From: Gimesia alba
GTDB taxonomy: Bacteria > Planctomycetota > Planctomycetia > Planctomycetales > Planctomycetaceae
Reading direction: 5' to 3'
NCBI RefSeq assembly: GCF_007744675.1
Contig: NZ_CP036269.1
Location: 2,123,501-2,187,500, forward strand
Length of the DNA: 64,000 nucleotides
Positions 13,523 to 31,900 of this stretch are shown piece by piece. The notes under the pieces are model-generated. The model was not told where the DNA came from and ran no database searches. It was given only the letters and a program-made list of their open reading frames with translations. Positions within the stretch are counted from its first letter, which is position 1. Each line of letters opens with the position of its first letter. A program made the position numbers and the translations under genes.

Positions 13523-15172
13523 CTAGAATTTAGCCAGAAATTCAATCCGAGCACCGGAGGCAACGCCCCGTGACTCCTGCTTGGCTACAAAGCTGTCGAG
13601 CAGCATGATCCAATGTTGGCCGATCGCTTTTTGATAGCGGATGGCGCCCCCGATGGCACCATCATTGACGTCGTTAGTATCTTTGCGGCCACCGATTTCG
13701 AAAATGAGCTGCTGTCGGGTCTTATCATAGAAGAGTTGGTATCCCAGACTGGCACCCGCGACATCGGTTGCCTGGTTACTCAAGGGAGCACCATATTGTC
13801 CCAGTCCAGAGGCGGCAAACAGCAGACCAACCTGTCCCAGCGGTCCGCCGGCCAGTGTTCCTCGTGCGGGGGATGTAAACTGGTCGATGGCCCAAAATGC
13901 ATTGAAGTAGACCAGGTCATTCGAGTGATGTGGTGTTAAAGAGATCTGACTGAAGAGCAGTTCTCCCTGTCCGGAGGCTGCCGTTTCGCCATCGTGAGGA
14001 AATGAGCCCAGTACCTGGAACGAAGTATTGTAAGTATTGTGGAATCCGTGCAAACGCTGAATCGCACTCAATCCGAAAGCGGTCATACTGCCGAATTGCG
14101 GGTTGCTGGAGTTGACGGTCGCTACATCGGCGTTGACCGTACTGACTTCAAAGTCCGTTTCAGAGAAGATACCATACATTGTGGAGTCGGGGTCATGGAC
14201 GTTGTTATTCCGGTTGATGTCCCCCTCAACATACACGCCGGTCACGCGCATATTCAGAACACCTCCACCGTTGATTGTATTCCGCGTGACGGTGACCGCA
14301 TCCACCATGTCTTCGTTGATTAACAATCCCTGTTGAAACGACATCGGCTGACGCCCAACGGAAAACCCAATGTCGTATCGATGCACGTCATAGGGATCCA
14401 GATTCGGAAACAGTTCGCCAAAATCGCCTTCAAAAAACAGAGTTTGAATGTCGGCGTTGAGTCCATCAAGCCATTCTCCATCGTGGAACTCATAGCTTGT
14501 AAACAGTCGTGAGGCAGTCAACTCCTTATCAAGTGACCGCAGACCAACGAGAATGCGTTCTGTACCGGAAAGGTTCAATTGTCCAAACAGATCGAGTCGG
14601 TTGGCCCATTCGGTGACGTTGGTCCCGGCACGGTTATTAAAATAGTTCAATCCGGTTCGGTAAGTACCAAATACCCAGAACGAAGGCCGCCAGACGGCAC
14701 CTGTGGGAATCTCGATTCCCTGGTTCAGGAATCCGACTCCCAGAAATTTTTCGTTGGTCTCAATCAGCAGGTCAGGACGTTCGGGAATCGGTTGTATGCC
14801 GATGGGAAAGTCATCCAGAGGTGTTTCAGGAGCGTAATGTTCGGAGCAAAGCAACCACTGGCCGAAATGTGCCAAGGGTTCAGCCGGCGATGCTAACGCA
14901 TCCATTGCCATCTCGCCCAGCTTCCAGTAGAGGGGCTCGGAATCGTGATACACGTTCGGATCATATTCCACGCGATCAGCGTAGGGATTGATATAGTAGT
15001 CGTCAAATTCATCATACTCATCAGCTGCCTGTGTTTCTTCTGCCATTTCCGGAGAAGGGGGCAGGCTGGCGACACCCGGGGCATCTGGCGCTTGCGCATG
15101 AACAATTCCCGAGTACAAAAGAAATGCACTCGTTAGAATCAGGAACAGGAATTGTTGTTTCAATTTTCTCAT
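13523..15172 (-). CDS. Predicted outer-membrane beta-barrel (porin-like) protein
   Basis: This 549-residue protein has a clear signal peptide (hydrophobic residues 8-25, ending IVHA). The mature part is rich in aromatic/glycine alternating strands, lacks hydrophobic membrane helices, and ends in phenylalanine (EFLAKF), a typical barrel C-terminus. An acidic, tyrosine-rich segment (EYDEFDDYYINPYADRVEYD) follows the signal. I do not recognise a named family beyond porin-like. It starts 15 bases after the stop of the multiheme cytochrome gene upstream and is very likely co-transcribed with it. A barrel paired with a multiheme cytochrome recalls outer-membrane porin-cytochrome conduits, but a general porin is equally possible. 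Confidence 0.65.
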   Translation of the reverse strand: MRKLKQQFLFLILTSAFLLYSGIVHAQAPDAPGVASLPPSPEMAEETQAADEYDEFDDYYINPYADRVEYDPNVYHDSEPLYWKLGEMAMDALASPAEPLAHFGQWLLCSEHYAPETPLDDFPIGIQPIPERPDLLIETNEKFLGVGFLNQGIEIPTGAVWRPSFWVFGTYRTGLNYFNNRAGTNVTEWANRLDLFGQLNLSGTERILVGLRSLDKELTASRLFTSYEFHDGEWLDGLNADIQTLFFEGDFGELFPNLDPYDVHRYDIGFSVGRQPMSFQQGLLINEDMVDAVTVTRNTINGGGVLNMRVTGVYVEGDINRNNNVHDPDSTMYGIFSETDFEVSTVNADVATVNSSNPQFGSMTAFGLSAIQRLHGFHNTYNTSFQVLGSFPHDGETAASGQGELLFSQISLTPHHSNDLVYFNAFWAIDQFTSPARGTLAGGPLGQVGLLFAASGLGQYGAPLSNQATDVAGASLGYQLFYDKTRQQLIFEIGGRKDTNDVNDGAIGGAIRYQKAIGQHWIMLLDSFVAKQESRGVASGARIEFLAKF

Positions 15173-15187
15173 TAAGCTGATTCAATA

Positions 15188-17113
15188 TTAAGGAATACAG
15201 ACGGTATCCACTTTTTCGTACAACACCATATGTCCGTCGACAACGCCATCTGCGACATCACGGGCAGACATGCCATAGTCAAACCCCACGTCCGAGATCT
15301 CATGCACTAGATTTACCGGCACCATGCCTGCAATCAGTTGAACGCGAATCGTATAATTACCCGGTCCCGTGAGTTGCTTTCGTGAAACATGATAGTTTGC
15401 CAGGCGATTGCTTCTGGGGGGAATGTTTTGCTTTTGCTTACGTGCCCCAATCGGACGCCCCAAAACCGTAAAGGGGCGCGTCGCTGGCCGAAAGTAAGGC
15501 AGTGGGTCGAGAGAATAAGGCACATTCAGAACCTGCTCACGTTCACCACCCCGAATGTTGCGGGTAATGAAACGTGATTGCAGAGTGAATAACTGCCGGT
15601 CAATCGGTATCTTTCCGTTGTGCACATACAGGGAGTGAGAGTCGCGAATATCGCCATTCGGATCGAGGTCTCCGGATTGAAAGACGAGTTGCCCATTTTG
15701 GTCCCAGACCATGGTCCGTAGAAAGACAACGCGTTCCGCGTCAAACCCGGTGGGGACGCCATGTCCCAGTGTAATATTCGAAACGGGGACCGAGAAATCC
15801 AGTCCATACCACTTCGCTTTTTCAACTTGAATTTCACCTAAATGATAGCCTGCTCTCAAAAGCTGCAGTCTTTGGGTAGCGGCCTCTCCCAGTAATTCGT
15901 ATTGGTCATTCAGAATGAGCCGTGCTTTAATTCGTGTGACTTGATTGTCCCAGGGAGGGGGAAAGTAAGTCTCTTTCGTAACGTGTTTTTCAAATTCAGG
16001 AGTACCCCAGCCGGCGGCATCATCAAAGCAGAGCCATTCTCGCATGGTAGCGAGCCCCTGATCGGGTGAGGGGCTAGAATTTTCTTCTTTGATCGCTTTC
16101 GGATTATGCGGAAACAGGCCGCGATGAATAATCGGATAGTCAGGGCCAATCATCATATGGTTTGTATGTTTGCGAACCGGTGTAGGCACATTTCCAACAA
16201 TGGCTGCAGGCGAAAAGGAATATCCTGAAGGGACGCCAGGAACGACACCCATGTGACAATCCTGACAATTTTCTTTGCACTGCTTGGCAGAAGGAGAATG
16301 TTTGAATTCACTGAAAGCGTCCTCCAATCGGAAGCCGTTAGGGGCAAACACATCGTGACAACTGCCGCAGAAACCAGGTGTGGTCAGTTGAAAGAATTCA
16401 TACGCTTCTGCATGAATTGCACGCCCTCGAATTGCAGGATTATCGGTTGTTTTCAGAACGCCATATTTATCCGGATTCGCCAGAACTTCAGCCAGAATTT
16501 CTCCGCCCGACGGTCCATAAACTGCCTGGTTAATATCTCCACTCACCAGCGCCTGACGACCTGCAATTCCTTTTCCCCATGCCTGATTGATGCGGTGACA
16601 GGTTACACAGGTCACACCTTCACGCGAAGAAGGGGGGCGATCCAGATTGCTCATATCAATGGGCTCGGATAACGCCATGCCGACGGGGGTATGACAGCGG
16701 ATGCAAAAATCACCCAGCGTGCCATTATTGAGTTTGATCAGTTTGTTCGACATCGCGTTAAACACGGGACTCAACTGGGCATAAGCATGCGGTGAGACCG
16801 ACCATTCGCGATAATGCTGTGGGTGACATTTGCCACATTTGGCAGCAGACGGGAATGGATCATTTTCATAGCACTCGGCATGGGCCTGATCAACGGCAGC
16901 TTGTAGAAGTTCGTCAAGCTTTGTGGCGGTTGTCGCTTTGGTGTTGCTTGCAGTTGCGGAAGCAGTTCGAACGTTGGACAGCCTGATGAGTCCCGGGTCT
17001 TCCGCTTGAACGTATTGAAAATAGATGTTGGGTAGAAGAATACCCAAAACGACGATCGAAAACGCCAGATAGCGTCCGATCTTGATTTCATTCCTGCAAG
17101 GAGAGGATTCCAT
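15188..17113 (-). CDS. Pentaheme c-type cytochrome (c554-like)
   Basis: This 641-residue protein has an N-terminal membrane anchor or signal (about 15-35, in YLAFSIVVLGILLPNIYF). Five heme-attachment motifs are visible: CGKCH, CIRCH, CVTCH, CGSCH and CQDCH, all in the first half. The first is followed by PQHYREWSVSPHAYA, the pattern typical of cytochrome c554-like multiheme proteins. The C-terminal half is heme-free and beta-rich. The ATG start has GGAG seven bases upstream. It is the first gene of a two-gene unit with the beta-barrel gene. The likely role is periplasmic electron transfer or a redox reaction on a small oxyanion; the substrate is not deducible. Confidence 0.88.
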   Translation of the reverse strand: MESSPCRNEIKIGRYLAFSIVVLGILLPNIYFQYVQAEDPGLIRLSNVRTASATASNTKATTATKLDELLQAAVDQAHAECYENDPFPSAAKCGKCHPQHYREWSVSPHAYAQLSPVFNAMSNKLIKLNNGTLGDFCIRCHTPVGMALSEPIDMSNLDRPPSSREGVTCVTCHRINQAWGKGIAGRQALVSGDINQAVYGPSGGEILAEVLANPDKYGVLKTTDNPAIRGRAIHAEAYEFFQLTTPGFCGSCHDVFAPNGFRLEDAFSEFKHSPSAKQCKENCQDCHMGVVPGVPSGYSFSPAAIVGNVPTPVRKHTNHMMIGPDYPIIHRGLFPHNPKAIKEENSSPSPDQGLATMREWLCFDDAAGWGTPEFEKHVTKETYFPPPWDNQVTRIKARLILNDQYELLGEAATQRLQLLRAGYHLGEIQVEKAKWYGLDFSVPVSNITLGHGVPTGFDAERVVFLRTMVWDQNGQLVFQSGDLDPNGDIRDSHSLYVHNGKIPIDRQLFTLQSRFITRNIRGGEREQVLNVPYSLDPLPYFRPATRPFTVLGRPIGARKQKQNIPPRSNRLANYHVSRKQLTGPGNYTIRVQLIAGMVPVNLVHEISDVGFDYGMSARDVADGVVDGHMVLYEKVDTVCIP

Positions 17114-17365: not shown

Positions 17366-19108
17366 TCATTTCTTGAGTGTGACCACACCATCCCAGTTAA
17401 AGGGGGCTTTATAATTATGACTGGCAATCTGGAGCAGTAAAAAATCTCTGGCACGATCTTTGGGGGGCAGATGCCCTAACAGATCAAGCGAACTGTCCCA
17501 GTCACCATCAATAAATGCATCCACGGCTGCTTCAAAGTCTTTAATATTCTGATTTGAAATCGAACTCTTTCCCTCAGTGGGTAGTAGTTCATAGACCGAA
17601 AGCGGGGCTTCTAATCCTGGGGGACGAAATAAACCGAGATGGCGACAACGTCCTTCAGATTCGGGAAGCAGATTTCGTACATCAGAGGCGGTCGCTTCAT
17701 CAATTAGAATCGGCACCCCCAGTTGCTTTGTCATCCCCTCCAGGCGAGAGGCCAGATTGACCACGGGGCCAAAAACACCGACTTTCGCCTGCTCGCGCGT
17801 TCCAATCTTGCCGGCAATGGCGTTGCCACGTGTGATACCGATTCCAACTTCGAAACCACTCAACTCATTGAAATGAGTACTGTTCGAAATCTTGAACATC
17901 TGTTGAATTCGCAGCGCGGCAAGACAGGCAGGAAGCGCTCCTTTCGTCAACGGCAGAGGCCAGCCCCAGAAACCAAGCGCACTATCCCCCTGGAAGTCTG
18001 CGATGACCCCATTCTGACTACTGATGCTTTGAGTCATGACGCCCAGGGCGTTCTTCAAACGATCCAGAAACTGTTGTAAATTTTTCCCTGCCTGTTCCGT
18101 CATATGTGAGAAACGTCGCAGGTCGCAGAATAAGACAGCTGTTTCTGTTTCCGTTGGTTCCAGTGAATGTTTGGCGTTCTCCTCAGAAACGACTTTGATG
18201 ATCGCGGGAGAGAAAAACTGTTCTATGCCGGAAAATCGGTCTTCCAGCTTTCGTACGCGACGAATGGCAGACAGCATATGAGCCAGCAGTTCGACAAGAT
18301 TCAAATCATCCTGTAAATCATTCGTAGATAAATAGGCCTGTGAAGGCGAATCTTCACCAAAGCGACCGCAGATATAGAGGCACCATTTCTGGTTTCCCTC
18401 TGTTTTGACTGGAGTACAGAACGCCCAGCGGCCATTGGCAAGCGGCGTCCCTTTGCGACTGCTTTCTACTTCGATGGCAGTCTCGCCTTTTCGGATAGTG
18501 TCACGAACCAGCGATCTGATGATCGTAACGCGCCGAAAACCGGGAACGGGTTGTTCCCAATGGGCGACATTCCATTTTTTCGGACCATCACTTTGGATCA
18601 CAGCGACCACGTCTGCATGTGGCATCACATCCTTGAGTAGGAGAGCCGCCTGTTTTGCCAGGTTTCCTTCATCTTTGCAAAGCCATAAACTGGGAACGGC
18701 TTTGGAGACGGTTTCGATTCTGAGGTCTGTAATCCGCAGACTGGCTTCTGTTAATATCCCAGAATCGGTATCCAGATCGTCTAGAATCTCCAGAACTCCG
18801 GAATTGGATGATCGTTCAATCGACTGAAACTGAGTCTCACCAATCTGAAACGAATCGCCTACTGAGATCGTCAACTCGCTATGAAATTGCTCGTCAAACT
18901 TGATTTGGTTCAGTACACTGGGAAAACAACGGATATTCAGCTGATCTTCATTGCGTTGGAATTCAGCATGCATCCGTGAAATGGTAGAATCCCAGGGAAT
19001 GGCACAATCGTTGTCAGCGCTCCTACCTAACAACATTTTTTGCGATTCAGGAATATGCCATTCAATTTTTTCGCCCGGCCTTGGCCCTTTTGCAATGAGA
19101 TGTATCAT
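17366..19108 (-). CDS. FHA-GAF-class III adenylate/guanylate cyclase
   Basis: I place the start at the ATG at 19108 (580 residues), because the FHA domain begins directly there (MIHLIAKGPRPGEKIEW). The frame stays open to a TTG at 19258, so a 50-residue extension is possible; none of the candidate starts has a good ribosome site. The FHA domain (about 1-110) has the phosphopeptide-binding signature LLGRSADND then SRMHAEF. A GAF-like region follows (about 140-290), then a class III cyclase domain (about 330-530). Both metal-binding aspartates are present (AVLFCDLRRFS and QGDSALGFWG), as is the catalytic Asn/Arg pair (VVNLASRLEG). The base-selecting residues are atypical: the usual Lys three residues before the GD motif is Asp (DFQGD), and the usual Asp/Thr partner is Gly (VGVFG). 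The nucleotide product is therefore uncertain. The gene is divergent from an operon encoding a cyclic-nucleotide-binding protein. Confidence 0.85.
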   Translation of the reverse strand: MIHLIAKGPRPGEKIEWHIPESQKMLLGRSADNDCAIPWDSTISRMHAEFQRNEDQLNIRCFPSVLNQIKFDEQFHSELTISVGDSFQIGETQFQSIERSSNSGVLEILDDLDTDSGILTEASLRITDLRIETVSKAVPSLWLCKDEGNLAKQAALLLKDVMPHADVVAVIQSDGPKKWNVAHWEQPVPGFRRVTIIRSLVRDTIRKGETAIEVESSRKGTPLANGRWAFCTPVKTEGNQKWCLYICGRFGEDSPSQAYLSTNDLQDDLNLVELLAHMLSAIRRVRKLEDRFSGIEQFFSPAIIKVVSEENAKHSLEPTETETAVLFCDLRRFSHMTEQAGKNLQQFLDRLKNALGVMTQSISSQNGVIADFQGDSALGFWGWPLPLTKGALPACLAALRIQQMFKISNSTHFNELSGFEVGIGITRGNAIAGKIGTREQAKVGVFGPVVNLASRLEGMTKQLGVPILIDEATASDVRNLLPESEGRCRHLGLFRPPGLEAPLSVYELLPTEGKSSISNQNIKDFEAAVDAFIDGDWDSSLDLLGHLPPKDRARDFLLLQIASHNYKAPFNWDGVVTLKK

Positions 19109-19438
19109 TGAGTAGGTCCCGTTTGTCGTCTGTCTCTTAGTGGATGTGCTTTGCATAGTATTGACAATGAGGGTTCGGACATGTTTGAATTTATAAAGAT
19201 CACAGGGCCCTACCTTTAAAACGGATATTCTGCCGGGCGGTAACCGCTCTTCGTCCAATTCGTCAGAAAATCTTCAAACTAGTCAATAAAATCACGTAGT
19301 ATTACAATTAGTATACTCGTTAATGAATAAGAGTCGTATTGTTATAGCATCGTACTCTAAGAGGTAATTTTAAGAGAGTTTTGGTTCAGATACGACCATT
19401 ACAATCCTTAAATTTACTCTATCCCGTCTCCCATTCAC
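19109..19438. promoter_or_regulatory. AT-rich divergent intergenic region between cyclase and redox operon
   Basis: The region lies between the cyclase gene (minus) and the tetraheme cytochrome operon (plus). The segment 19260-19400 is strongly AT-rich and free of gene-like coding, as expected of back-to-back promoters. I cannot assign specific -35/-10 boxes with confidence. Shared control of the cyclase and the operon is plausible from this arrangement. Confidence 0.4.
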
Positions 19439-20650
19439 ATGCAAAGAAAGTTTCTCAGAATGAATCTTGCCGAACGCAGATTTCGCTTTCTCAAATCAGC
19501 TAGTTGCCTGTTCACTTTGATGGTGGTTTGCCTGGTTCTGCAAGCCGTTATTTCAGTCTATTCCGAGAAGATGTATGCAACCGAATCTGCAGCAGCTGCA
19601 TCCTCATTTGTGTCGACCGATGCAGAGTCAAAAGCAGAACAAACGAAAAAAACGATGGGTGTCGTTGCAGCCGACTGTAAGAAGTGTCATCCTTCTGAAG
19701 TTGCAGCCTGGATGAAAACGGTGCACTTTCAATCTCCCGATGAACGACTCTTTAAATTTGAAGGGAACACAAAAAAGTACGCAACGGCAATGGGACTGAC
19801 GAGTGCCGACTTACAGGGCGATTCCATGTGTGCGGACTGTCATGGTACAAAGGCAGTCAGAGACGGCCAGGTCAAAGTAATTTCGGGAGTTTCATGTGAA
19901 AAGTGCCATGGTGCTGCCGGCGGAGAGGATGGCTGGCTCAATCGTCATCAGTCTTATCATGCCAGCATGCCAATTTCTCGTGCTGAAGAGACTCCAGAGC
20001 ACCGTGCGGAACGGCTCAAGTTCTGTGACCAGGCTGGCATGAAACGCTCTTCCGATATTTATGGTCTGTCCAAATCCTGTTTTAAATGTCATATCGTTGG
20101 AAATGAAAAATTGATCGCTGCGGGACATAAGGCGGCAAGTGCCTTCGATTTTGTTTCCTGGACGGGTGGAGAAGTCAAACATAATTTCCTCGTTGACAAA
20201 ACCAAAAATGCCGATGCCCCTTCATTGTGGATGGAACGAACTGGGGGAACTGCAGAAAATCGCAAGCGAGTCAAGTTTGTGGTTGGCACTTTAGTTCAAC
20301 TGGAAACCGCACTACGAGCACGCGCTAAAGCAACAAACCCCGCTGTCATTCCACAAATAAGTGGGATTATCGCAGCGGCAAACGGCAAGCTGTCACAGAT
20401 CAATGCTGCTGCTCCCACGCCGGAAGTTCAAGCGGTTATCAATCTCATCACACCTATGTTCGGGACACTGTTCGCGCCGCTGCCAACCGATAAAGAGACT
20501 TATACGAAGGCTGCTGATGAAGTCGCGGAACAGGCAAAACTATTTGCCAAAAAATATGATGGTGCTGATTTTTCCAAACTCGATTCTGTCATCAAACGCT
20601 ATCCTCCACACTATTCTCAGCAGTTTCAGGACAAGTATCTGAATAAATAA
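19439..20650 (+). CDS. Tetraheme c-type cytochrome, c554 family
   Basis: This 403-residue protein has an N-terminal signal or anchor (about 20-38, in SASCLFTLMVVCLVLQAVI). It carries four heme motifs: CKKCH, CADCH, CEKCH and CFKCH. The first sits in ADCKKCHPSEVAAWMKTVH, the cytochrome c554-type opening. The C-terminal 130 residues are helical and heme-free. An internal ATG eight codons in is an alternative start. It opens a four-gene operon; the next gene begins 42 bases on. The probable role is periplasmic electron carrier or acceptor for the complex encoded downstream. Confidence 0.88.
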   Translation: MQRKFLRMNLAERRFRFLKSASCLFTLMVVCLVLQAVISVYSEKMYATESAAAASSFVSTDAESKAEQTKKTMGVVAADCKKCHPSEVAAWMKTVHFQSPDERLFKFEGNTKKYATAMGLTSADLQGDSMCADCHGTKAVRDGQVKVISGVSCEKCHGAAGGEDGWLNRHQSYHASMPISRAEETPEHRAERLKFCDQAGMKRSSDIYGLSKSCFKCHIVGNEKLIAAGHKAASAFDFVSWTGGEVKHNFLVDKTKNADAPSLWMERTGGTAENRKRVKFVVGTLVQLETALRARAKATNPAVIPQISGIIAAANGKLSQINAAAPTPEVQAVINLITPMFGTLFAPLPTDKETYTKAADEVAEQAKLFAKKYDGADFSKLDSVIKRYPPHYSQQFQDKYLNK

Positions 20651-20692
20651 GAAGTCTCGACCAGTTCCACACCAGCAACAAGTTGTACTCCC

Positions 20693-22432
20693 ATGTCAGA
20701 ACCTTCGATTTCACGTCCGCGTCGCTGGGATAAACCTTTCTCGCTCGAACCAGGCAGCGAGGAAGAAATGACAGATGCAGATGTGGAAATCCTTCTGAAG
20801 AAGCCACCCTTTTCGCAGATTGACCCCGCTGGATTTAAGCGGTCTCTACCTCTGCACGACATCATTAAAAACGATGCACGGGTAGTTGGGTTTGACGATG
20901 GTGACATTGTTGTGCGGCGGGGAGACTGGGGAAATTCAGCCTTCTTTATTTTATCTGGTAATGTGCGTGTCGGTCTGGAAAGAGGAAAGCCAACTCTGCC
21001 TGATGAAATCCTGGGGCGGCGCCATCATAAGGTTAAAAACCTATGGGAATCTTTTTCACAACTCTGGCGAAATCACAGTGTACCTGAAGTCCGTAAACTA
21101 GATTCTGTGTTTTCCAAGTCTGAGTTGAAAACACGTCATGCGCACAACAGCACTCGAATCTATCTTCAGGAAGTCTCGGCTGTTCTCGATAAATACCATA
21201 CCGCACGACTTGAAACAGGACATTGGTTTGGTGAACTGGCAGCGCTGGGCCGAACCAGCCGCGTCGCTACCGTGTTTTCGGAAGGGGTTTCACAGCTCCT
21301 TGAAATTCGCTGGCAGGGAATTCGCGATATTCTGCGACATGATCAGAATGGAAAACTGAAACAATATATCGAGGACGCGTTCCGCGAACGGGCTCTAGCT
21401 GCCTTCCTGCGAACAACTCCCTTGTTTCATGACTGTCAGCCAGAATTGATGCAACGGATTGTAGATCAGGTTGAATTTCATACTTTTGGCAACTATGACT
21501 CTCCGAAACCGTTTAAAGACTTAATCGAGAATCAGGATCATGCGACTGAGGGCGGGGAACCCGTTATCATCCGTGAAGGTGATTATCCCAGTGGCATCGT
21601 CATGATTCGTAGCGGCCTGGCCCGTATCAGTCAGCGGCATTATAACGGCCGACGTACAATTGGTTATTTATCTCCCGGTCAAATCTTTGGATTGGATGAA
21701 ATTCGGGCTGAAGTACAATCGCTGACACCCGTTGGCTGCCGTACACAACTGAGTGCGATAGGACACCTGAACGCGGTGCTTGTGCCCACGCCACTTGTTG
21801 AGGAATTACTCAAGCAAAACGACTCTACCGGGGCCGCAGATCTGCATGAAGTCAAAACACACGTTTCGGATTCAGGCAGCCACTCGGTTAAAATCAATGA
21901 TGATACGCTGCTCAGCCAGTTGGTCGATCAGAATTTTGTCCAAGGAACATCACTGATGGTGATTGACCTTGAACGTTGTACACGTTGCGATGATTGCGTC
22001 CGCGCCTGCTCTACCGCCCATGACAATAATCCCCGGTTTATTCGCCATGGGCCCATTCTCAATCAATATATGATTCCCAATTCCTGCCTGCATTGTGTGG
22101 ATCCGATCTGCATGATTGAGTGCCCTACAGGTGCAATCTTTCGCGATTTTGCTCAAGGTGATATCATCATCAACGAACAAACCTGTATTGGCTGTGCCCA
22201 GTGTGCCAGCAACTGTCCATTTGATGCGATTCGTATGGTTGATATTCGAGATTCCAAAGGAAATATTATCGTCGATTCCAAAACGCGTTCACCCCTGACT
22301 CAAGCCACAAAGTGCGATTTGTGTATCGACCAGAGAGGCGGACCGGCCTGCGAACGTGCTTGCCCGCATGACGCACTCTTTCGTGTGGATATGCAGGATG
22401 CGTCTCAAGTGGGAGAGGTGTTTTCACGATGA
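20693..22432 (+). CDS. Fusion of cyclic-nucleotide-binding domains with a four-cluster ferredoxin (4x 4Fe-4S)
   Basis: In this 579-residue protein, residues about 50-235 form a Crp-like cyclic-nucleotide-binding domain. It is interrupted by an insert of roughly 70 residues and has an intact phosphate-binding cassette, FGELAALGRTSRVATV (near 179). A second, degenerate copy spans about 240-370 (SPGQIFGLDE). Residues about 420-570 hold four ferredoxin cysteine clusters: CTRCDDCVRAC, CLHCVDPICMIEC, CIGCAQCASNC and CDLCIDQRGGPACERAC. This is the pattern of the electron-transfer subunits of DMSO reductase- and NrfC-type complexes. There is no signal peptide, so it is probably cytoplasmic and bound to the membrane partner. 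Its stop overlaps the start of the next gene by ATGA, indicating tight co-translation. The likely role is electron transfer modulated by cyclic nucleotide, which the neighbouring cyclase could supply (inference). Confidence 0.9.
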   Translation: MSEPSISRPRRWDKPFSLEPGSEEEMTDADVEILLKKPPFSQIDPAGFKRSLPLHDIIKNDARVVGFDDGDIVVRRGDWGNSAFFILSGNVRVGLERGKPTLPDEILGRRHHKVKNLWESFSQLWRNHSVPEVRKLDSVFSKSELKTRHAHNSTRIYLQEVSAVLDKYHTARLETGHWFGELAALGRTSRVATVFSEGVSQLLEIRWQGIRDILRHDQNGKLKQYIEDAFRERALAAFLRTTPLFHDCQPELMQRIVDQVEFHTFGNYDSPKPFKDLIENQDHATEGGEPVIIREGDYPSGIVMIRSGLARISQRHYNGRRTIGYLSPGQIFGLDEIRAEVQSLTPVGCRTQLSAIGHLNAVLVPTPLVEELLKQNDSTGAADLHEVKTHVSDSGSHSVKINDDTLLSQLVDQNFVQGTSLMVIDLERCTRCDDCVRACSTAHDNNPRFIRHGPILNQYMIPNSCLHCVDPICMIECPTGAIFRDFAQGDIIINEQTCIGCAQCASNCPFDAIRMVDIRDSKGNIIVDSKTRSPLTQATKCDLCIDQRGGPACERACPHDALFRVDMQDASQVGEVFSR

Positions 22433-23253
22433 AACACTTTTGGATGCAACAAAGAATCACTTTTTTGTTATTCACGGTGATTTCTCTGCTGATTTTCGCG
22501 GGGTGCTATTTATTTTCGATTACACTTTCGAAGACTTCATTCGCCAGCGGAACAATTTTGTTGCTCTGTCTTCTCTTTCTGGCCAGTTATCAGTTACGCA
22601 AAAAAATCTCATTTCTACCATTGGGAAGCAGTGCCGCCTGGCTTCGTTTTCATATCTTTATTGGCTTCCTGTCGTTTGTCGTCTTTGCGATACATACCAG
22701 ACTGCAGATTCCGAATGGCCTGTTGGAATTCATTCTCTTCCTGACGTATTACACCGTGTTTTTAAGTGGTGTGGTTGGATTGTTCCTGTCACGCACGATT
22801 CCCTATCGTCTCCTCTCGCGTGGAGAAGAAGTGCTCTTTGAGCGAATTCCCGTACATCGACGAAAAATACATGATCGAGTTAAGACGCTGGTCTTTGATG
22901 ATGCGCAGCCAGAGCAGGGGGCCGCACTCCCTGATTTCTATCACAAACACTTGCAGGATTTTTTTGAAGGCCCGCGTCATCAGATCAGTCACATCCTGCA
23001 TTCAAAACGACATCTGCATCAACTCAAACAGAAAATTTCTGCACAAGAGCCGTTTCTTGATGAACAGGAGCAGGTTAGGCTACAACAGATCGCAGAGCAA
23101 ATTCAGTTGAAAGATGATCTCGATTACCAATATATTTTTCAGGCCATTATCAAATTGTGGCTCTTCGTGCATGTGCCTTTGACATATTCCCTGATCATTT
23201 TTGCTTTCTATCACGCACTTGCTGCCTGTGCGTTTGCGAGTACCAGCGGATGA
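22429..23253 (+). CDS. Di-heme b-type membrane cytochrome subunit
   Basis: This 274-residue membrane protein has about five hydrophobic helices and a polar central region (about 125-235). Two histidine pairs, each spaced by 14 residues, lie in helices: H75/H89 (FHIFIGFLSFVVFAIH) and H248/H262 (HVPLTYSLIIFAFYH). These suit ligation of two b hemes stacked across the membrane. I do not assign a named family; it resembles quinone-reactive cytochrome b subunits in design. It overlaps both neighbours by ATGA and so belongs to the same translational unit. The expected role is carrying electrons between the cytoplasmic Fe-S protein or quinone pool and the periplasmic multiheme cytochromes. Confidence 0.8.
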   Translation: MKHFWMQQRITFLLFTVISLLIFAGCYLFSITLSKTSFASGTILLLCLLFLASYQLRKKISFLPLGSSAAWLRFHIFIGFLSFVVFAIHTRLQIPNGLLEFILFLTYYTVFLSGVVGLFLSRTIPYRLLSRGEEVLFERIPVHRRKIHDRVKTLVFDDAQPEQGAALPDFYHKHLQDFFEGPRHQISHILHSKRHLHQLKQKISAQEPFLDEQEQVRLQQIAEQIQLKDDLDYQYIFQAIIKLWLFVHVPLTYSLIIFAFYHALAACAFASTSG

Positions 23254-25373
23254 CCGAACCGTTGCAACCTTTCGACTGGAAGAACAGTAATTACGAACGA
23301 CCTGCAAACACCTGGGTTTGCGGACGGTTGTGCGAGAAAGGTTTGCCTTGTCGGCTGGGACCGAGCAACAAGGGGGAATGCCAGGTTCAAAGTCAGTGCG
23401 AGCCTGCAGAGAAAGGTGGAAAATATCAATGTACTCGTTCCGTCTTGAATGGGGGAAAGTGTAAGGAAGGTCCGGCACCCGATGGGACCTGCTGTCAGCC
23501 TGATACCAGTTGTCAACCCCGCCGCAGTCTCTTAGCCAAGCGGCGGTTTCTGGGGGGACTTGCTGCGTTCATTGCTGCTTCGCTTTGTCTCATTGTTTTC
23601 AGCGGTGACTCTCCCTCCTCTCTCCTTTCGCCGGGGGAAGTCATTGATGCACACGCCAATATTGAATCGAACTGCAGTGCCTGTCATTCTGCCGCCGAGG
23701 GAGGCCTTGATACCTGGATTCATCTGACCATGAATGATGATGTCGCTCTTGATGATTCAGCGTTATGTCTGAAATGCCACACGGAGTTGGGAGAAGAAGC
23801 ACTTTTCGCCCACAGTGTTTCTGTTGAGCGATTACACGAAATAACCAGTCAAATTCAAGAAACGAAGGAAACAGCTTCGACTCCCATAGCACTGCAGCTT
23901 GCTTCATTGACGGGCCATCCCACGACGAACGGTAAGCTCGCCTGTTCCACCTGTCACCAGGAGCATCATGGACGAAAGGCAAATCTCACACAATTAACAG
24001 ATTTGCAGTGTCAATCCTGTCATGCCAGGCAGTTTGCAAGCTTCCAGCACGGCCATCCCGCTCTGGGGGATTATCCTTATGAACGCCGATCGCGGATTTA
24101 TTTCGATCATAACACGCACCTGAATCGTTATTTCAAAAATGAAGAGTTTAAGCGAACCATGCCCCACGGGCACAAACCGGAATCCTGCAGCTCCTGTCAC
24201 ACATCTGATGCCACAGGCCGTCTGATGTTGACAGGCAGCTTCGAAAAGACCTGTGCCAGTTGTCATGAACCGCAAATTGAAGATGTCGATTTTCCAGGCG
24301 TTCCATTTTTTGCACTGCCAGTCATTGCTCCCACATTGATGAAGTCACAGGGAGCCTGGCCTAATACCGAGGGATCTTTTGCCACAGCCAGGTTACCTCG
24401 ACTGATGGAACTCTTGCTGGAAAATGATCCCGGCTATCAAAGTGCCATCAAACAACTGGGAGCGATTGATTATCGTAAGTTGAACAATGTTGATCCAGAG
24501 CAAGCCGCCGCAGTCGCAGAAATTGCCTGGGCCGTTAAAAGACTGCTCTATGATATTTCCACATCAGGCGAAGCGGCATTAACGGAGCGCCTGGGAAAAA
24601 ACAGTGCCCTGTATCTGCATCTCAAACCGTCCATCGTTCCCACATTATCACAGGCGCAGCAAATCTGGTTTCCGAATCTGGCAGCGGAAATCAAAGATCA
24701 TACAGAGAAAAAGGCACTACCAGCTTCGACCCGGCAAAAACAGGCACCGTCAGGGTTCTCTACACGCAATGCCAATAGTGGTTGGTCTATCTCCGATTCT
24801 GATTTTACAGTTCGCTATCGTCCCATCGGCCATGCCGATCCCCTCATTAAAGGTTGGCTCGATCAGGCTGTTCAGAAGGATCAGAAGAATTTAGACCGTG
24901 ACAGTCTATGGCAGATATTCTCAAATCCGACCGCATCCGGCACTGAAGATTCTCACGGAGCCCTTGCTTCCGGTCGCTGTCTGATGTGTCACTCTGTTGA
25001 TAAAGATCCTGTGAGCGGAGTTTCTCACATCAATTGGCAACCGTTACCAACGCAGCAGGCAAAAGAACAATTCACGCAATTCTCACATGCTCCTCACTTA
25101 TTAGCAGGACAACGACTGAACTGTGAAAATTGTCATGTCTTTGACCGATCTGGCACAGACAGTGCTGCCATTTTGCAGAGTGATTATTTCGTTCGCGATC
25201 GATCGAATTTGTTCTGGCAGATCAATCAGAACAGCCGGCAGGCTTGCACCAGTGGCTTTCAGCCCATCAGCCGGCAAAATTGCAGTACCTGCCATAATCA
25301 GGCAACCGCAACCCAAAGCTGCCTGCAATGTCACAATTACCATGCACATCGGAAACTGACTTCTTCTGAATGA
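23250..25373 (+). CDS. Decaheme c-type cytochrome with Cys-rich N-terminal domain
   Basis: I start this gene at the ATG at 23250, which overlaps the upstream stop (ATGA); this gives 707 residues beginning MTEPLQPFDW. An earlier in-frame start at 23157 would run deep into the previous gene. The first 85 residues carry ten cysteines (CGRLCEKGLPC, then CQPDTSC) but no heme motif. After a basic RRSLLAKRR comes one membrane helix (about 95-115). The remainder has ten CxxCH motifs: CSACH, CLKCH, CSTCH, CQSCH, CSSCH, CASCH, CLMCH, CENCH, CSTCH and CLQCH. The topology predicts a cytoplasmic Cys-rich head and a periplasmic decaheme wire. The Cys-rich head could hold zinc or an Fe-S cluster. It is the last gene of the redox operon and is followed by a strong terminator. 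Confidence 0.9.
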   Translation: MTEPLQPFDWKNSNYERPANTWVCGRLCEKGLPCRLGPSNKGECQVQSQCEPAEKGGKYQCTRSVLNGGKCKEGPAPDGTCCQPDTSCQPRRSLLAKRRFLGGLAAFIAASLCLIVFSGDSPSSLLSPGEVIDAHANIESNCSACHSAAEGGLDTWIHLTMNDDVALDDSALCLKCHTELGEEALFAHSVSVERLHEITSQIQETKETASTPIALQLASLTGHPTTNGKLACSTCHQEHHGRKANLTQLTDLQCQSCHARQFASFQHGHPALGDYPYERRSRIYFDHNTHLNRYFKNEEFKRTMPHGHKPESCSSCHTSDATGRLMLTGSFEKTCASCHEPQIEDVDFPGVPFFALPVIAPTLMKSQGAWPNTEGSFATARLPRLMELLLENDPGYQSAIKQLGAIDYRKLNNVDPEQAAAVAEIAWAVKRLLYDISTSGEAALTERLGKNSALYLHLKPSIVPTLSQAQQIWFPNLAAEIKDHTEKKALPASTRQKQAPSGFSTRNANSGWSISDSDFTVRYRPIGHADPLIKGWLDQAVQKDQKNLDRDSLWQIFSNPTASGTEDSHGALASGRCLMCHSVDKDPVSGVSHINWQPLPTQQAKEQFTQFSHAPHLLAGQRLNCENCHVFDRSGTDSAAILQSDYFVRDRSNLFWQINQNSRQACTSGFQPISRQNCSTCHNQATATQSCLQCHNYHAHRKLTSSE

Positions 25374-25480: not shown

Positions 25481-25990
25481 TTAGTTCAACAGCGGGTTGT
25501 CACCGCCGGCGATAGCGCTGAAGAAGTCATCGAGATCGGATGCGTCTGCATCGTCGATCACAGGCAGACGCCGCTGTGAATCGTTCAGCGATTCACTCAT
25601 CAGGTCGTTGCCCGCTTCATCAGCGTCCAGATCGTCATAACCCAGGACGTGCCCCAGTTCGTGCATCACGACCGTCAACAGATCCATGCGACCGAAGGCT
25701 GCACTCGCTTCGTCGGCGACCAGGTTGCCGTCTGCATCCAGCGTGAATTCGCTGTTGTCAAACGGGCTGTCGTCTACGAACCAGCCATAGCCGGCGGCAT
25801 TCACGTCGATCAGGATCGTGCTGCTGTTCGCACCACCGAGCATCGCATCCGGCAGATCTGCCAACACAAAGCTTACCGACTGCAGACGATCCAGTTCTTC
25901 CGCCGTCAACCCTGTGGCACTCCAGTAGGTCAACGCGGCATTCCGCACAGCGTCCAGATCGGCCTGGGTGATCGAGTCAGCAGGCGTGCT
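25481..25990 (-). other. Metzincin-like zinc-protease module at the C-terminus of the giant protein
   Basis: This is a sub-region of the giant coding sequence. HELGHVLGYDDLD supplies the three expected zinc ligands (HExxHxxGxxD). It is preceded by a helix (DADLDAV-like) and the strand FVLADLP typical of this C-terminal module in planctomycete proteins. LMSESL follows where metzincins have their Met-turn. Activity is likely but unproven; it may mature the protein or act on the surface. Confidence 0.7.
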
Positions 25991-28900
25991 GCTTACACCG
26001 GCGGCGGCTACCAGCGGTCCGGTCCGTTCGATGCGAACGGCGTCCGCGATGATCGAACCGTCGGCCACATTGTCACTCAGTGTCACCGTGATCGTTCCAC
26101 CGGCTCCGACAGCGATGGTGCCCAGGATTTCCCAGTACTTGCCTTCGGAATAGAAGTCGTCCGCTTTCAGTCGCTGATTGACCACGATCGGCCCGGTGCC
26201 AATGTTATATTCTGCATTGCTGGCCCGAAGGCTCGAATGCTGGTACCAGGTAGTAGACACGGTATACGTCCCGGCGGCCAGACCGTTGAAGTTCCAGGTT
26301 GCCGTACCGTTATCGCCCAGATTCAACTGCTGCGCATCAGATTCGTAGTAGAACAGACTCGCACCGCCCTTTGCCTGCCAGGGGCCCACACTGCTGTAAT
26401 CGGCGTCCCCGTTGTCGACAATCTGCACCGTCGTCATCGTAGCCGATACATTGATCGTGAAGGGATTCTCGTCGGTATCATCGTTGGCAATCGAAACCAC
26501 GCCGGCGGAGACACCAGACATTCCCGTGCTGTTGAATTCCAGCACAAACGTCGTCGATTGGCCGGCGGCCAGCGCCACCGTTCCCGGCCCCGAGAAGACA
26601 CTGAAGTTCGCCGGAGTGGAGATCGCTCCCAGGTTCAGCGTGTCGGTGCCTGAATTCGTAATCGTGAAGGTCTGGAACAGGGATTCCGCAAAGCTGGCTG
26701 TGCCCAAGTCGACACTGCCGACGCCGCTGACCAGATCAACGGCGTCTGCCTGCACTTCGATTTCCGGGCTTCGCAGGCCGATGGGAATCAGTTCCAGTCG
26801 CATCGCATCGGCGACGACATCACCATTGGCACCGTCGTCGGTAATCGTCACCGTCAACGTGGCTCCTGCTGCCACCTGGAAGTTCCCCAGTTCTTCCCAG
26901 GTCGTACCATCGGCAGTGAAATCATTGGGAGCATACCGCTGGTCCAGGCTGACCGTAATCGGTCCCCCTTCAATTCCGGAGATCGTGATCTGGGCATCCG
27001 GTGCCAGACTGCTGTGCTGGAACCAGTGAGTCGATACCTGATAGGTGCCGGCTCCCAGATTGTCGAAGGTCCAGGTCGCGGTGTTGCTGCCCAGCAGATC
27101 GCCACCACGCAGGATATCCTGATCCCGCTGGAAGTAGGTATAGAACGAGGAATCGTAATTGATAGAAACGGTTTCCCAGGGACCACTGTTGCTGTAATTC
27201 AGGTCTCCATTGTCCACAATCATCGAGTTTTGTGCCGATCCCGTCACACTGAAGTTGAAGGGATTTGCATCAAACGAATCAGCGCCGAAGGAAATCATGC
27301 CGCCAAAGGGACCGGCGACTGCAGCATCCATCTGTACGGTAAATGTGGTGGAAGACCCAGGTGACAGATTGTCATTCCCAAAGCCACTAAGGAGGCTGAA
27401 TCCTGCTGGCAGGTTCAGCGTTCCCAGTGCCATATTCCGTTCACCATAGTTGGTCACAGTGAAGGTCTTGATGACAGGAGCCCCGACGATGGTCTCTTCG
27501 AAATCAACGGTGCCGCCATCTTCGACGACTCCCCCGTCAACTTCCACGCTGATCACAGGATCGACCACGCGATAGATGCGGATTTCATCGGCGAAAACAA
27601 TCCCATCGGCATTGTCGGTCAGCTGCACACTCAGGGTGTTCCCTGTGATCGCAACCGGATTACCAATATATTCCCAGAGCGTGCCATCATCCAGGAAATC
27701 ATTGGGGTTGGTCTGATGACTCACCAGTACGGTCGTCACAGGAGACAGATCGTCATAGATCGTATAGGGAGCGTTGCTAGCAGCGGCCCCGCCGTAGGGA
27801 GCGAGATTCGGGTGGACGTACCAGTTAGCAACCACCTGATAACGGCCTGGTTCCACATCAAAGCTCCAGGTGGCACTGTTGGCACCACTGCCGCCCACAT
27901 CTGCCACGCCGGCATACAGGAATTCGGGATCGCCAATGCCCCGGGGGGTATAATCGTTCCAGGTTCCCGTGGTAGAGAAATCGGAGTCCGTGATGCCGAC
28001 GGTGGCCGGCCCCGCTGTTCCACTCACAGTGAAGTTATAAGGATTCTCATCTTCGTCGCCCGTTGTAAACGAAATCTGACCAAAGGTAGAACCGCTGGTC
28101 CCCCCGTCAAACTGGATCGTAAAGGTAACGGAACCACCGCCGGCAATCGTAACCGGCATTGTATCGGTTCCAAACGGCGAAGCGGGATCAATGCTGAAGC
28201 CGGCAGGAAATTCGACCAGGCCGGTGACATCGACGTCCATCGAAGACAGATTGGTCACGGTAAAAGTCTTGCTGACCGGTACTCCGGGCAGCGTGCTGCC
28301 GAAGTCAACATTGCCGGTATCGTCTTCGACAACCGTGCCCATATCCACGGTGACCTGCAGATCGGGCTCTGGCAGATATTCAATGCGGATCGCATCGGCA
28401 ATCACGCCGTAAGACAGGTCGGACATATGGTAGAAGTCACGCGGATTGTTGTTGGCGTCGTTGGTCAGCGTGACCGTCAGTACCCCACCAACAACAAGGT
28501 ACGATGCGTTCAAATCAAACCAGGCAGTTCCGTCTTCCGTAAAGCTGGACGGGGTAACCTGCTGGTTGACATCGACCGTCACCACGCCCGATCCGCCATC
28601 CAGAGAGAACGGCGCGTCATCGACGCGGTTGAAATAGGGAGCCCAGGTGGTCGAAACCCGGTAATTGCCATCGGCCAGATCGGTAAAGGTCCAGGTTGCG
28701 GTTTCTGCACCAGGTTGAGTCGTGGCGCCGGGCTGATTTGGAATCGCTGCCGTCGAATCCGCTTGGTAACCATCGTCACCCAGGTTGGTTCCGTCCGGGA
28801 AATTTTGAAAACCGGCCGTTGCGGAAAATTCCGCATCGCCGTCATCGATGATCACCACGTTGGAAACACGGCCATCCAGCAGAATGTTGAAGGTCGCTTC

Positions 28901-31900
28901 GTCGACATCATCGGTTTCGAATGAGAAGATGCCGGAGCGGTCTCCGAAGCTGGAAGCGTCCATCGTAATCGTAAACTGGATCGTGGCCCCAATGCCAACG
29001 GCCTGAGGGGTCAGGTCGGTCGTATAACCAGCTGGAATTGTGATATTGCTGATATTCAGGACCGCGGAACCGTTATTGGTGATTTCAAAGGTTCGCACGG
29101 CGGGAGTCAACAGTTCGGTATCACCGAACTGAATACCGCCGGGATGTCCGTCAACGACCACCGCCGGTGGTGCCAGTACGTCGGTCACATCCGTCAGTTC
29201 GATTTCCGGACCTGCAGAAACCCGTTCGATGCGGATCGCATCGGCGATCACATTGCCATCGGCCAGGTTGGTCAACATGACGGTCAGGGACCGGGTGCTG
29301 ATCGTAAACGTCCCCAGATCTTCCCAGATAGCGCCATCGGCACTGAAGTCATCGGGCAGTAACTGCTGATTCAGATCAACGGTTGCCAGCGGAGTCGCAG
29401 CAATGGTGCCCACATCGGACTGAGCCCCGTCAAAGACCGTAAACGGAGTATCGGTGGCGACGAGCCCGACTGATTGAGGATTGTCCGAAACTGGCCAGGT
29501 CACGGAGACCCGGTATTCTCCCGGTGTCAGGCCGAAGAATTCCCAGAAGGCCTGAGCAGGCCCCGTTCCGGTCGGCGTGTTTCCGTGGACCGAATGAATG
29601 TCGTCTTCGAAACCAGTCCCATTGGTAATGGCGGCCGTTCCATTCGGATGGAAAGCCCAGTCTCCGGTGAGCGTGAAGCCGACATCGCCGTTGTCCACGA
29701 TGAAGCCGGGACTGTCTTCAAATGGACGCACATTTTCGAAGTTCAGATACTGCACGGTACCCACGCCGTCCGCCGTCAGGGAGAAGCCGGTGTCGATCAC
29801 GGACTGTCCCTTGGCGTCGAAGTCCAGCGTATCCAGGCCCCCGCGGCCGTCGGCCGAACGCAGGACCGGTGGTCCGTCGATCGGGAAGTTACCGTCCTGG
29901 GAAAGTGGATCGATGAAGATCAGGTCGTTGAACTCACTACCGACCACGTTTTCCATGAAGCTGGGGTTCGTATCCGGCTGCTGTGGCTGAATCTGTCGCA
30001 GTTCGACCGTGTTGCCGCCGAAGACATCTTGAGGCATGTTGATGATATCGGCATCAAACACGATGCCCTGGCTGGCGAAGCGGAAGTCGATCGTGTCGTT
30101 GCCGTGGATATCGGTGATCACGTCGGCACTGCCGCCGGCCCCTGGTTCCATCAGGAACACGTCGTTGCCGCCGTTTTCGCTGCCGACGCCATTGCCGCCG
30201 CCGTCCAGGTTGTCGTTGCCGAAGCCGTCACCCAGAATGTTGTCATCGTTGTCGCCGGTGATATTGTCGTTGCCGTCACCACCGAAGACGTTTTCGATGC
30301 TGTTGTCATCGTCGCCGCCGCCGGTGCCCAGAGCCAGGCCACCACCAATGTTGGTCGCGGTTCCGGCAAACAGGTCGACGTTCACGCCTGTGGTGTAATC
30401 CCGGTAATCGAGGCTGTCGTTCCCCAGATCCCCGTTCAGGGTGCCGGTGAGGCCCGCTCCGTCACTCAGGTCGAAGCGGTCATCCAGGTTGCCCCCGATC
30501 AGGTTTTCGAAGTCGAGGAAGCTCAGGAACTGTTCCGGTGGTGTGGCCGTGGCGTCACCGCCCGTGGTCGGACGACCGCTCATCAGGTTGGGACGGTCGG
30601 CGATAATGAAGCCGGTATCCGTCGAGGTGATACCCCAGTAGTTATTCAGATCGGGACCTTCCAGCGTATCCCCGCCGGCGGTTCCCAAGAGATCGTCGAT
30701 GTTATCGAAGCCCAGGCTGCCGATGCCGGTACCCAGGATGCTGCCGTTGTTTTCGCGGCCCTGGAAGCCGTCGATGGTTCCCAGACCGGAGAGGGCAATG
30801 TGCACCACGGCGGCATAGGTGGTGTAGTCGATGGTATCGACGTCGCCGCCCCCGTCGATGAAGCCTCGCAGAATGCTGCCAGGCAGGAAGAAGAATTCAT
30901 CATTGCCGGCATCCCCGTTCAGGCGGGTGTCCACGCCCATGGGCGTGCTGCCGTTCTGCAGGGAGAAGTCATCGTCGCCGTTAAAGCCGTTGATCGTGAC
31001 GTTATTCAGGTCTTCCTGAGTCGTCAGGTTCACACTGATGTCATCATTGCCGTCGGTCCCCGTGACGTTCAGGTTATCGATTGCCATATACGTGATATCG
31101 GTGCCCACGGCACTGGTCAGGCCTTCGACGGTGGTCGAAGTGACTTCGAACGTGTCACCAGTCAGATCGCCGGAATCGATGAGGATCAGCGTGTCGTCGC
31201 CCCCTTCGCCGTCAATCATGATCTGAGCATTGATGTTGTCGACGGTATTGCCGGCATCAAAGACATTGATCACGTCATCGCCGGCGGCCGCCAGGATGTC
31301 GATGTTGAGTACGCCCAGCGGAGCCGAATGCACGCGGATCACATCGTTGTCGGCTGCGTTGGTGCCGAACACGTCGTCGGCATCGATTACAATGCTATTG
31401 AGGTTGCTCCCCGGTCCCACAGCGATCAGATCAATCGTGTCGCTTCCGGGGCCGGAGACGACTACCAGATCCTGATATCCATCAAACACCACATTGGTGA
31501 ATCCCCCGTTACCCATGATCTCAGTATAGCTGCTGAGCAAAGAGGGGGAGTCAATCACAATCTGGTTGGTCATGGGGGTATCACTGGCATCGACATGGAG
31601 TTCACCACCTGAATAAGTGAGGAAGTCGAGTCCTCTCAGACGGGCAAACGAGAATCCGAAGTCAATATCGGTGTTCCCTGACTGCGCGGCAACGATATTA
31701 CCGCTCCCCAGGGCATCGTCCATGTCCGAGAAGTAACCGACATCATAGGTGTTGATTGAGGTAATGAGACGAAATGCGTCGTTCATGCCTCCGCCACCAT
31801 CAAAATGGAACGTGATATCGTTGACATCGTAGGTATTGGGGTTAAAGACATCTTCCAGGTAGAAGTCGGCGGCGGCGTTCAGGTGCGAACCGCTGGAAAA

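Follow-up and report, generated by a model that had tools for sequence, protein, structure and literature searches.

Gene content of the locus

The stretch analysed here comprises 64,000 nucleotides of Gimesia alba (contig NZ_CP036269.1, positions 2,123,501 to 2,187,500 of the forward strand) and is referred to below, at its full length, as the window. It carries a gene for a class III nucleotide cyclase, divergent from a four-gene operon that encodes a tetraheme cytochrome (TETRA), a fusion protein that joins two cyclic-nucleotide-binding (CNB) domains to four [4Fe-4S] motifs (FUS), a membrane subunit (CYTB) and a decaheme cytochrome (DECA). Open reading frames and domain scans agreed with the tight operon described in the initial annotation, and the gene content of the window was confirmed apart from the GAF domain claimed for the cyclase. 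The features, in window positions, are:

17366-19258, minus strand: class III nucleotide cyclase with an N-terminal FHA domain, divergent from the operon; its start may lie near 19156
19439-20650, plus strand: TETRA, tetraheme c554-like cytochrome with four CXXCH motifs (PF13435, E 1.1e-10)
20693-22432, plus strand: FUS, fusion protein of 579 residues with two CNB domains (CNB1 and CNB2) and four [4Fe-4S] motifs
21227-21274, plus strand: phosphate-binding cassette of CNB1, FUS residues 179-194, FGELAALGRTSRVATV
21950-22390, plus strand: four [4Fe-4S] binding motifs with 16 cysteines, in the C-terminal part of FUS
22429-23253, plus strand: CYTB, membrane subunit of 274 residues with two H-X13-H pairs, predicted bis-heme b
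23250-25373, plus strand: DECA, decaheme cytochrome with a Cys-rich N-terminus, one membrane helix and ten CXXCH motifs
23319-23519, plus strand: Cys-rich N-terminal part of DECA, with eight invariant cysteines in two sets of four ahead of a hydrophobic segment

TETRA and FUS are separated by 42 bases, while the FUS-CYTB and CYTB-DECA junctions are ATGA overlaps, the start ATG of DECA overlapping the stop of the CYTB gene. In a profile search TETRA matched cytochrome c-554 (1bvb) with an E-value of 9.8e-15.

A Pfam scan of FUS returned cNMP_binding (E 6.4e-21) together with several Fer4 models, and its score against PF00027 was 74.6 bits at a gathering score of 27.5. No helix-turn-helix DNA-binding domain of Crp/Fnr type was found among the 14 Pfam families matching FUS at E<=0.1, the C-terminus being the 4x[4Fe-4S] part, and no output enzyme domain was detected in the scan. 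All 16 cluster cysteines were invariant in an alignment of 17 rows and were kept at a fraction of 0.99-1.00 across 81 sequences. The Fe-S half aligned with HydN, DsrO, DmsB and NrfC (NCBIfam, E 3e-16 to 4e-11) and with HycB-type PDB chains, and, as in the NrfC and DmsB subunits, 16 cysteines are arranged in four cluster motifs. Unlike NrfC, DmsB and DsrO, FUS carries two CNB domains in front and is partnered by a CYTB without Pfam match, NrfD included; its scores also fell far under the equivalog cut-offs (42.7 against 377.6, 56.2 against 214.1 and 57.5 against 200 bits). The Gly-Glu and Arg of the CNB1 cassette are shared with the CNB domains (PF00027) of CRP, PKA, PKG and the CNG/HCN channels. 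FUS differs from all of these in that its output is an Fe-S electron-transfer module and not DNA binding, a kinase or a channel, and in about 70 residues that are apparently inserted between the barrel strands.

Distribution of the gene cluster

The window operon is one case of a widespread cluster that is common to unrelated bacterial phyla. Loci were picked by patterns in the Fe-S part of FUS and ranked according to how similar they are to the complete window FUS, and all counts out of 80 refer to the best 80 of at least 479 related loci in species genomes, a sample in which divergent members are under-represented. Many of these loci end at contig edges, which makes the counts of partner genes lower bounds. 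By hidden Markov model (HMM) searches, FUS was found in 80, CYTB in 79, TETRA in 78 and DECA in 75 of the 80 loci, so that the subunit set recurs as a unit, as the initial annotation had assumed. Two further genes next to the operon in the window, for a pentaheme cytochrome (PENTA) and an outer-membrane barrel (PORIN), were present in 44 and 43 loci, respectively. Alignments, each with the window sequence included, took 17 of 28 fusions for FUS and, in addition to the window, 39 of 79 loci for CYTB, 24 of 78 for TETRA, 18 of 75 for DECA, 32 of 44 for PENTA and 37 of 43 for PORIN.

Carriers among the 80 include Planctomycetota (20 loci), Verrucomicrobiota (28), Alphaproteobacteria (20) and 12 others, with SAR324, Elusimicrobia, Nitrospinaceae, Mariprofundus and Acidiferrobacter represented; these counts follow the record names, some of which are apparently mislabelled. 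The same gene set is thus repeated in several phyla, and the window cluster is therefore far above chance. This spread far beyond Planctomycetota had not been part of the initial annotation, nor had PENTA, PORIN and the eight-cysteine N-terminus of DECA. Four of the loci (L061, L062, L063 and L067) are on the same contigs as L034, L035, L038 and L043, and the locus sets overlap accordingly. The names attached to L110, L107, L132 and L121 (Klebsiella pneumoniae, Akkermansia muciniphila, Asaia bogorensis and Rhizobium) are ill-suited to the gene content, and these records are possibly mislabelled metagenome bins.

Closer to the window, full-length FUS orthologues were present in 10 of 17 Gimesia genomes and in three other genera of the family, and relatives with longer open frames (about 740-950 residues) occurred elsewhere in the class and family. 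In a phylum sample of 294 genomes, 133 matched the FUS profile, many via a NuoG-like part alone and 40 via the CNB and Fe-S region. No description of the cluster was found in the open-access literature, which leaves out most subscription journals. The passages available from PMC10734462 and PMC4999443 contain no account of it. Nucleotide binding or gating was likewise not reported for such a complex in the open-access literature found.

Conservation of the nucleotide-binding pocket

The Glu and Arg residues of CNB domains hold the ribose and the phosphate, and the canonical phosphate-binding cassette motif includes Gly-Glu and Arg. In CNB1, Gly180, Glu181, Ala184, Arg187 and Arg190 were present in all 81 sequences (the window and the 80 loci). 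The pocket was selected only indirectly, the loci having been found through the Fe-S part and then ranked on the whole window protein. Residue 191 is Thr in 63 of the 81 sequences and Val in the window. CNB2 serves as an internal control: its aligned arginine position holds Arg in only 10 of the 81, and the canonical cassette positions are lost in this subtype. The initial annotation, which took the cassette of the first domain to be intact, was borne out. On this sequence evidence, cyclic-nucleotide binding by CNB1 is predicted, with no preference for cAMP or cGMP assigned.

Among other relatives from the class, Glu and Arg of CNB1 were both kept in 14 of 15 according to our own reading of the alignment. 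The exception (L058:141-1859) is a CNB-CNB-4x[4Fe-4S] protein whose first pocket is without the glutamate; it sits at the end of a contig, and the 8 kb on its other side contain no partner gene. The CNB1 block was inspected in 28 of 28 rows, and most of the CNB2 domains of these relatives looked canonical among the rows inspected.

Linked nucleotide cyclases

The window cyclase matched FHA (E 4.9e-6) and Guanylate_cyc (E 5.3e-9; 36.4 bits at a cut-off of 21.9), both above the Pfam cut-offs. Of the FHA-GAF-class III architecture given initially, the first and last elements were recovered, but no GAF domain was detected at E<=0.1. The cyclase start may lie about 100 bases inside the quoted frame, given that the closest orthologue has an open frame starting at residue 35. 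Asp379, Asp425 and Arg505 were found in 18 of 18 aligned linked cyclases and Asn501 in 94% of them; we take these four to be the metal and transition-state residues.

A class III cyclase lies within 12 kb of FUS in 7 of 15 genera, against 0.17 expected with 1-8 such cyclases per genome (P ~1e-10). The 12 kb limit was chosen after seeing the data; without the genus at 10 kb, P(>=6) is 8e-9, and linkage far above chance remains supported. Among the Gimesia genomes, FUS and the linked cyclase (76-100% identity) were both present in 10 and both absent in six, and one 74%-complete genome had the cyclase without FUS, on a contig of 3.2 kb.

Across the 80 loci, a cyclase was found beside 17: 13 of 20 in Planctomycetota, 3 of 28 in Verrucomicrobiota, 0 of 20 in Alphaproteobacteria and 1 of 12 in the others. 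The initial annotation had named absence of the cyclase beside most related operons as an outcome that would count against its idea, and this outcome was observed in part: the heme subunits are near-constant, and the cyclase is frequent in Planctomycetota but missing from the flanking sequence of most loci overall. Local cyclase supply is lineage-specific, common only in Planctomycetota, and does not derive from one cyclase clade. When 56 catalytic domains were placed on a tree, the label 'linked' changed 11 times, with four or more of these changes forced by starred branches; once seven rows had been removed (six on long branches, one from a contig that stops at the gene), it changed 8 times. 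A single vertically inherited clade of linked cyclases was rejected on the reduced tree (approximately unbiased test, p-AU 5e-57). It is possible that some unlinked cyclases have moved off the operon, and gain and loss of linkage cannot be separated by the tree.

The sensor domains of the linked cyclases vary. FHA scored above cut-off in the window cyclase, L065 and L075, and GAF passed the cut-off in L069 but fell short of it in L045, L054 and L056; CHASE2 was found in L089 and L111, and 7TMR-DISM in the SAR324 locus L082. No sensor domain was detected in the linked cyclases of L044, L133 and L134. That one kind of catalytic domain, joined to varied sensors, recurs next to this operon is the best evidence that the cyclase product matters to the complex.

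The window genome also encodes a second FHA-type class III cyclase (L145, C1:3252252-3254036), which is 38% identical to the linked one and is not linked to the cluster. Counterparts of 38-39% identity were found in 17 of 17 Gimesia genomes.

Membrane subunit and decaheme cytochrome

His75, His89, His248 and His262 of CYTB were invariant in 40 of 40 aligned sequences and form two H-X13-H pairs, a spacing that fits two predicted b hemes and upholds the initial 'bis-heme b' label. The CYTB model was all-helical, with a per-residue confidence score (pLDDT) of 91.8. No curated family matched the window CYTB at E<=0.01, and in PDB profile searches with CYTB and with PORIN all matches had an E-value of 0.16 or worse. 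Bis-heme b proteins of the ferric reductase, NADPH oxidase and MsrQ types are fed by an FAD/NAD(P)H module. CYTB resembles them in its two H-X13-H pairs and in the FAD/NAD reductase co-encoded in most relatives; it differs in that its electrons would be expected to reach the adjacent decaheme, and in the Fe-S wire and CNB domains placed in between.

Ahead of its hydrophobic segment DECA carries the motif C-x9-C-x9-C-x5/6-C twice in tandem, with all eight cysteines invariant across phyla. These cysteines (C25, C35, C45 and C51 with C62, C72, C82 and C89, numbered from 23247) were kept in 19 of 19 aligned sequences and at a fraction of 1.00 in 76 sequences. No Pfam match was found in this Cys-rich N-terminus, which is possibly an undescribed cytosolic metal module, binding an Fe-S cluster or zinc.

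Electron input

A gene for an FAD/NAD(P)H/2Fe-2S reductase was detected in 68 of the 80 loci by BLAST and in 56 by clustering. The 12 loci without it are three Gimesia-type loci and nine with less than 12 kb of sequence. The reductase of L064 matched the flavohemoglobin-type FAD/NAD domains of 1cqx with an E-value of 1.7e-47. A second arrangement was seen in loci with long fusions, where a NuoE-NuoF gene lies inside the cluster in 10 of 14 (BLAST). None of the 80 loci had NuoEF and none of the 14 had the reductase, and the two input modules are therefore non-overlapping in the sets examined. Pfam detected the NuoEF domains (51K FMN, 2Fe-2S thioredoxin-like and NADH_4Fe-4S) in L046, L047 and L049, and none of them in the window. 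In a Pfam scan of four long fusions, an extra NuoG-like N-terminus was present in L045 and L047 and absent from L053 and L056, whose loci are without NuoEF.

Because most relatives encode an FAD/NAD(P)H reductase or NuoEF, the donor is most likely NAD(P)H rather than the quinone pool, which the initial annotation had considered as an electron source and which was not supported. A quinol-linked NrfABCD-like complex was dropped as the leading idea, since CYTB was matched by no Pfam family, NrfD among them, and NAD(P)H modules are encoded by most relatives. In the genus of the window the donor would be unlinked to the operon.

The Rnf complex with the multiheme MmcA of Methanosarcina also passes electrons from a cytosolic low-potential donor via the membrane to a multiheme cytochrome, and has no nucleotide domain. 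The working proposed for the present cluster is similar, from a cytosolic donor across the membrane to a multiheme cytochrome; unlike in Rnf-MmcA, no Rnf subunit and no ion pump were seen among the recurrent neighbours scanned.

In Hwanghaeella grinnelliae, an FHA domain is fused to the FAD/NAD/2Fe-2S reductase beside the same operon (L119:6855-8897). This fusion suggests phospho-protein control of the input module.

Outer partners

To the left of the operon the window carries two further genes on the opposite strand:

15188-17113, minus strand: PENTA, pentaheme c-type cytochrome with a c554-type domain and a C-terminal domain, 15 bases from PORIN
13523-15172, minus strand: PORIN, outer-membrane beta-barrel of 549 amino acids, assigned by model and Foldseek

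PENTA matched PF13435 (E 9.6e-8), with five CXXCH motifs in the orthologues, and its profile matched PDB entry 5ze8 (molecule name 'cytochrome c552', E 3.7e-16). No Pfam or NCBIfam match was found for PORIN at E<=0.1. An AlphaFold model built from 38 sequences (pLDDT 83.6, predicted template modelling score (pTM) 0.77) showed a barrel of about 18-19 strands, with 19 counted at a length of at least 7 residues. Its best Foldseek matches, at E-values from 3e-11 to 1e-9, were to MOMP, AlgE and Occ/BenF porins. Both genes are kept left of the operon in most Gimesia members, not in all.

The MtrB-like barrel has 26 strands and encloses a decaheme. As in MtrCAB conduits, a porin gene here adjoins a multiheme gene; the differences are a barrel of about 18-19 strands, which is MOMP/AlgE/Occ-like, and a neighbouring cytochrome with five hemes. 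As to the terminal acceptor, since the barrel matches MOMP/AlgE/Occ porins and PENTA matches 5ze8, a redox protein in the periplasm, with a substrate porin serving it, is, judging from the model, more likely than a wire that crosses the outer membrane.

In several Verrucomicrobia loci (L077:8573-13410 and L114:9413-15757) a secreted or barrel-like protein of about 800 residues replaces the pentaheme and porin, together with a ten-heme cytochrome of up to about 1330 residues; the outer partner therefore varies. No common acceptor theme emerged among the neighbours: genes for a thiamine pyrophosphate enzyme, a metallo-beta-lactamase, an HbpS-like protein, MotA/MotB and a dehydratase each occurred in few loci.

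Proposed mechanism and alternative explanations

We propose, with somewhat better than even confidence, that the operon specifies a complex for exporting electrons across the membrane, in which a cyclic nucleotide acts as a switch on the cytosolic ferredoxin subunit. NAD(P)H would be the electron source, feeding in via the FAD/NAD(P)H/2Fe-2S reductase in most relatives and via NuoEF in a second branch, where a NuoG-like module is fused to FUS in the scanned members with NuoEF. With cofactor loading and membrane topology as predicted above, the electrons would pass through the four [4Fe-4S] clusters of FUS to the two b hemes of CYTB, on to DECA anchored in the inner membrane and then to periplasmic TETRA; in about half of the loci the pentaheme cytochrome, with the outer-membrane porin beside it, would follow. 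Binding of a cyclic nucleotide to CNB1 would alter how the Fe-S module fits its partners, so that the path opens or closes and the signal acts on the flow itself and not on genes; the neighbouring FHA-cyclase would supply that signal locally. Among the mechanisms considered, gating of the electron flow has the best support and is put forward as a proposal. What the sequences establish is the gene set, the kept CNB1 pocket, the recurring linkage to cyclases and the NAD(P)H modules of relatives; cofactor loading, topology, the identity of the ligand, gating, direction and the terminal acceptor are inferred. For the broader statement, that in multiple phyla a second messenger gates NAD(P)H-driven export to periplasmic multihemes via the ferredoxin subunit, with diverse cyclases repeatedly recruited for different environmental inputs, we regard the chances as evenly balanced.

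Several results weigh against this proposal. A cyclase is missing from the flanking sequence of 63 of the 80 loci, including 20 of 20 in Alphaproteobacteria and 7 of 20 in Planctomycetota. At the two base-selecting cyclase positions, which we presume to be Lys/Asp for ATP and Glu/Cys for GTP, the window cyclase and its nearest linked kin read Asp and Pro, and the cyclase product is therefore uncertain. Conservation of the CNB1 pocket indicates selection for the pocket, which is not the same as gating, and loss of binding in CNB2 is itself uncertain, a nearby Glu336 being kept in 79 and Arg354 in 54 of the 81 sequences. The Gimesia operon has neither a reductase gene nor NuoEF. A dedicated NAD(P)H reductase elsewhere in the window genome was sought with the reductase of one relative as query, which gave two partial matches of 27-30% identity; one adjoins a ferredoxin-like gene and the other was taken for NqrF from its length. 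For CYTB, Foldseek with the model returned no match at E<=0.001, and Pfam matches at E<=0.01 were weak among the 40 aligned sequences (DUF4405 in 7, Ferric_reduct in 2). On the outer side, the Gimesia member L036 lacks both pentaheme and porin beside its operon, and an Mtr-type outer-membrane nanowire was rejected, the barrel resembling a substrate porin and a wire through the outer membrane being unsupported.

Some of the same observations would suit a complex that carries electrons from NAD(P)H to the hemes as proposed, in which the CNB domains are no switch and hold a permanent ligand or assist assembly, while the cyclases serve other targets. The many loci without a flanking cyclase fit this explanation, as does CNB2, whose lost cassette positions show that a changed role is tolerated in one domain. 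It is harder to reconcile with Glu181 and Arg190 of CNB1 being kept in all 81 sequences, and with linked cyclases from multiple clades and with four kinds of sensor, which are difficult to explain if their product is idle here; we consider it unlikely.

Inward flow, from a periplasmic or external donor through the hemes and the Fe-S protein to NAD(P)+ or ferredoxin, would make the complex a nucleotide-controlled uptake system. Such reductase modules are in general reversible in principle, and some carriers are named as relatives of lithotrophs (Mariprofundus, Acidiferrobacter and Nitrospinaceae), but most of the 80 are Planctomycetota, Verrucomicrobiota or Alphaproteobacteria. An ion-pumping respiratory subunit could drive uphill reduction of NAD+, but none was recognised among the recurrent neighbours clustered and scanned; a MotA/MotB pair lies near one locus, L106. 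Uptake appears improbable. FUS could also be mainly a redox-sensing regulator, the oxidation state of its clusters altering nucleotide binding to signal the respiratory state, as CNB and Fe-S domains on one chain with variously sensing cyclases alongside might suggest, but the wire-like 4x[4Fe-4S] arrangement of its 16 cysteines and the near-constant pairing with CYTB and DECA suit a transport subunit better, FUS has no DNA-binding or output enzyme domain in the Pfam scan, and this explanation is very improbable.

To our knowledge, bacterial cyclic nucleotides act mainly as controllers of transcription, and for electron-transport chains the controls we know of are redox state, gene expression and thiol chemistry. 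If cyclic-nucleotide gating of electron export is correct, the CNB domains fused into an electron-wire subunit would be a fast post-translational valve on that export, and a role would be given to a frequent, apparently undescribed cytochrome gene cluster of Planctomycetota, Verrucomicrobiota and Alphaproteobacteria. The proposal offers a clear experimental target.

Beside the operon, the minus strand carries an open frame at 25481-42424 that encodes 5647 residues, apparently a giant repeat-rich surface protein.

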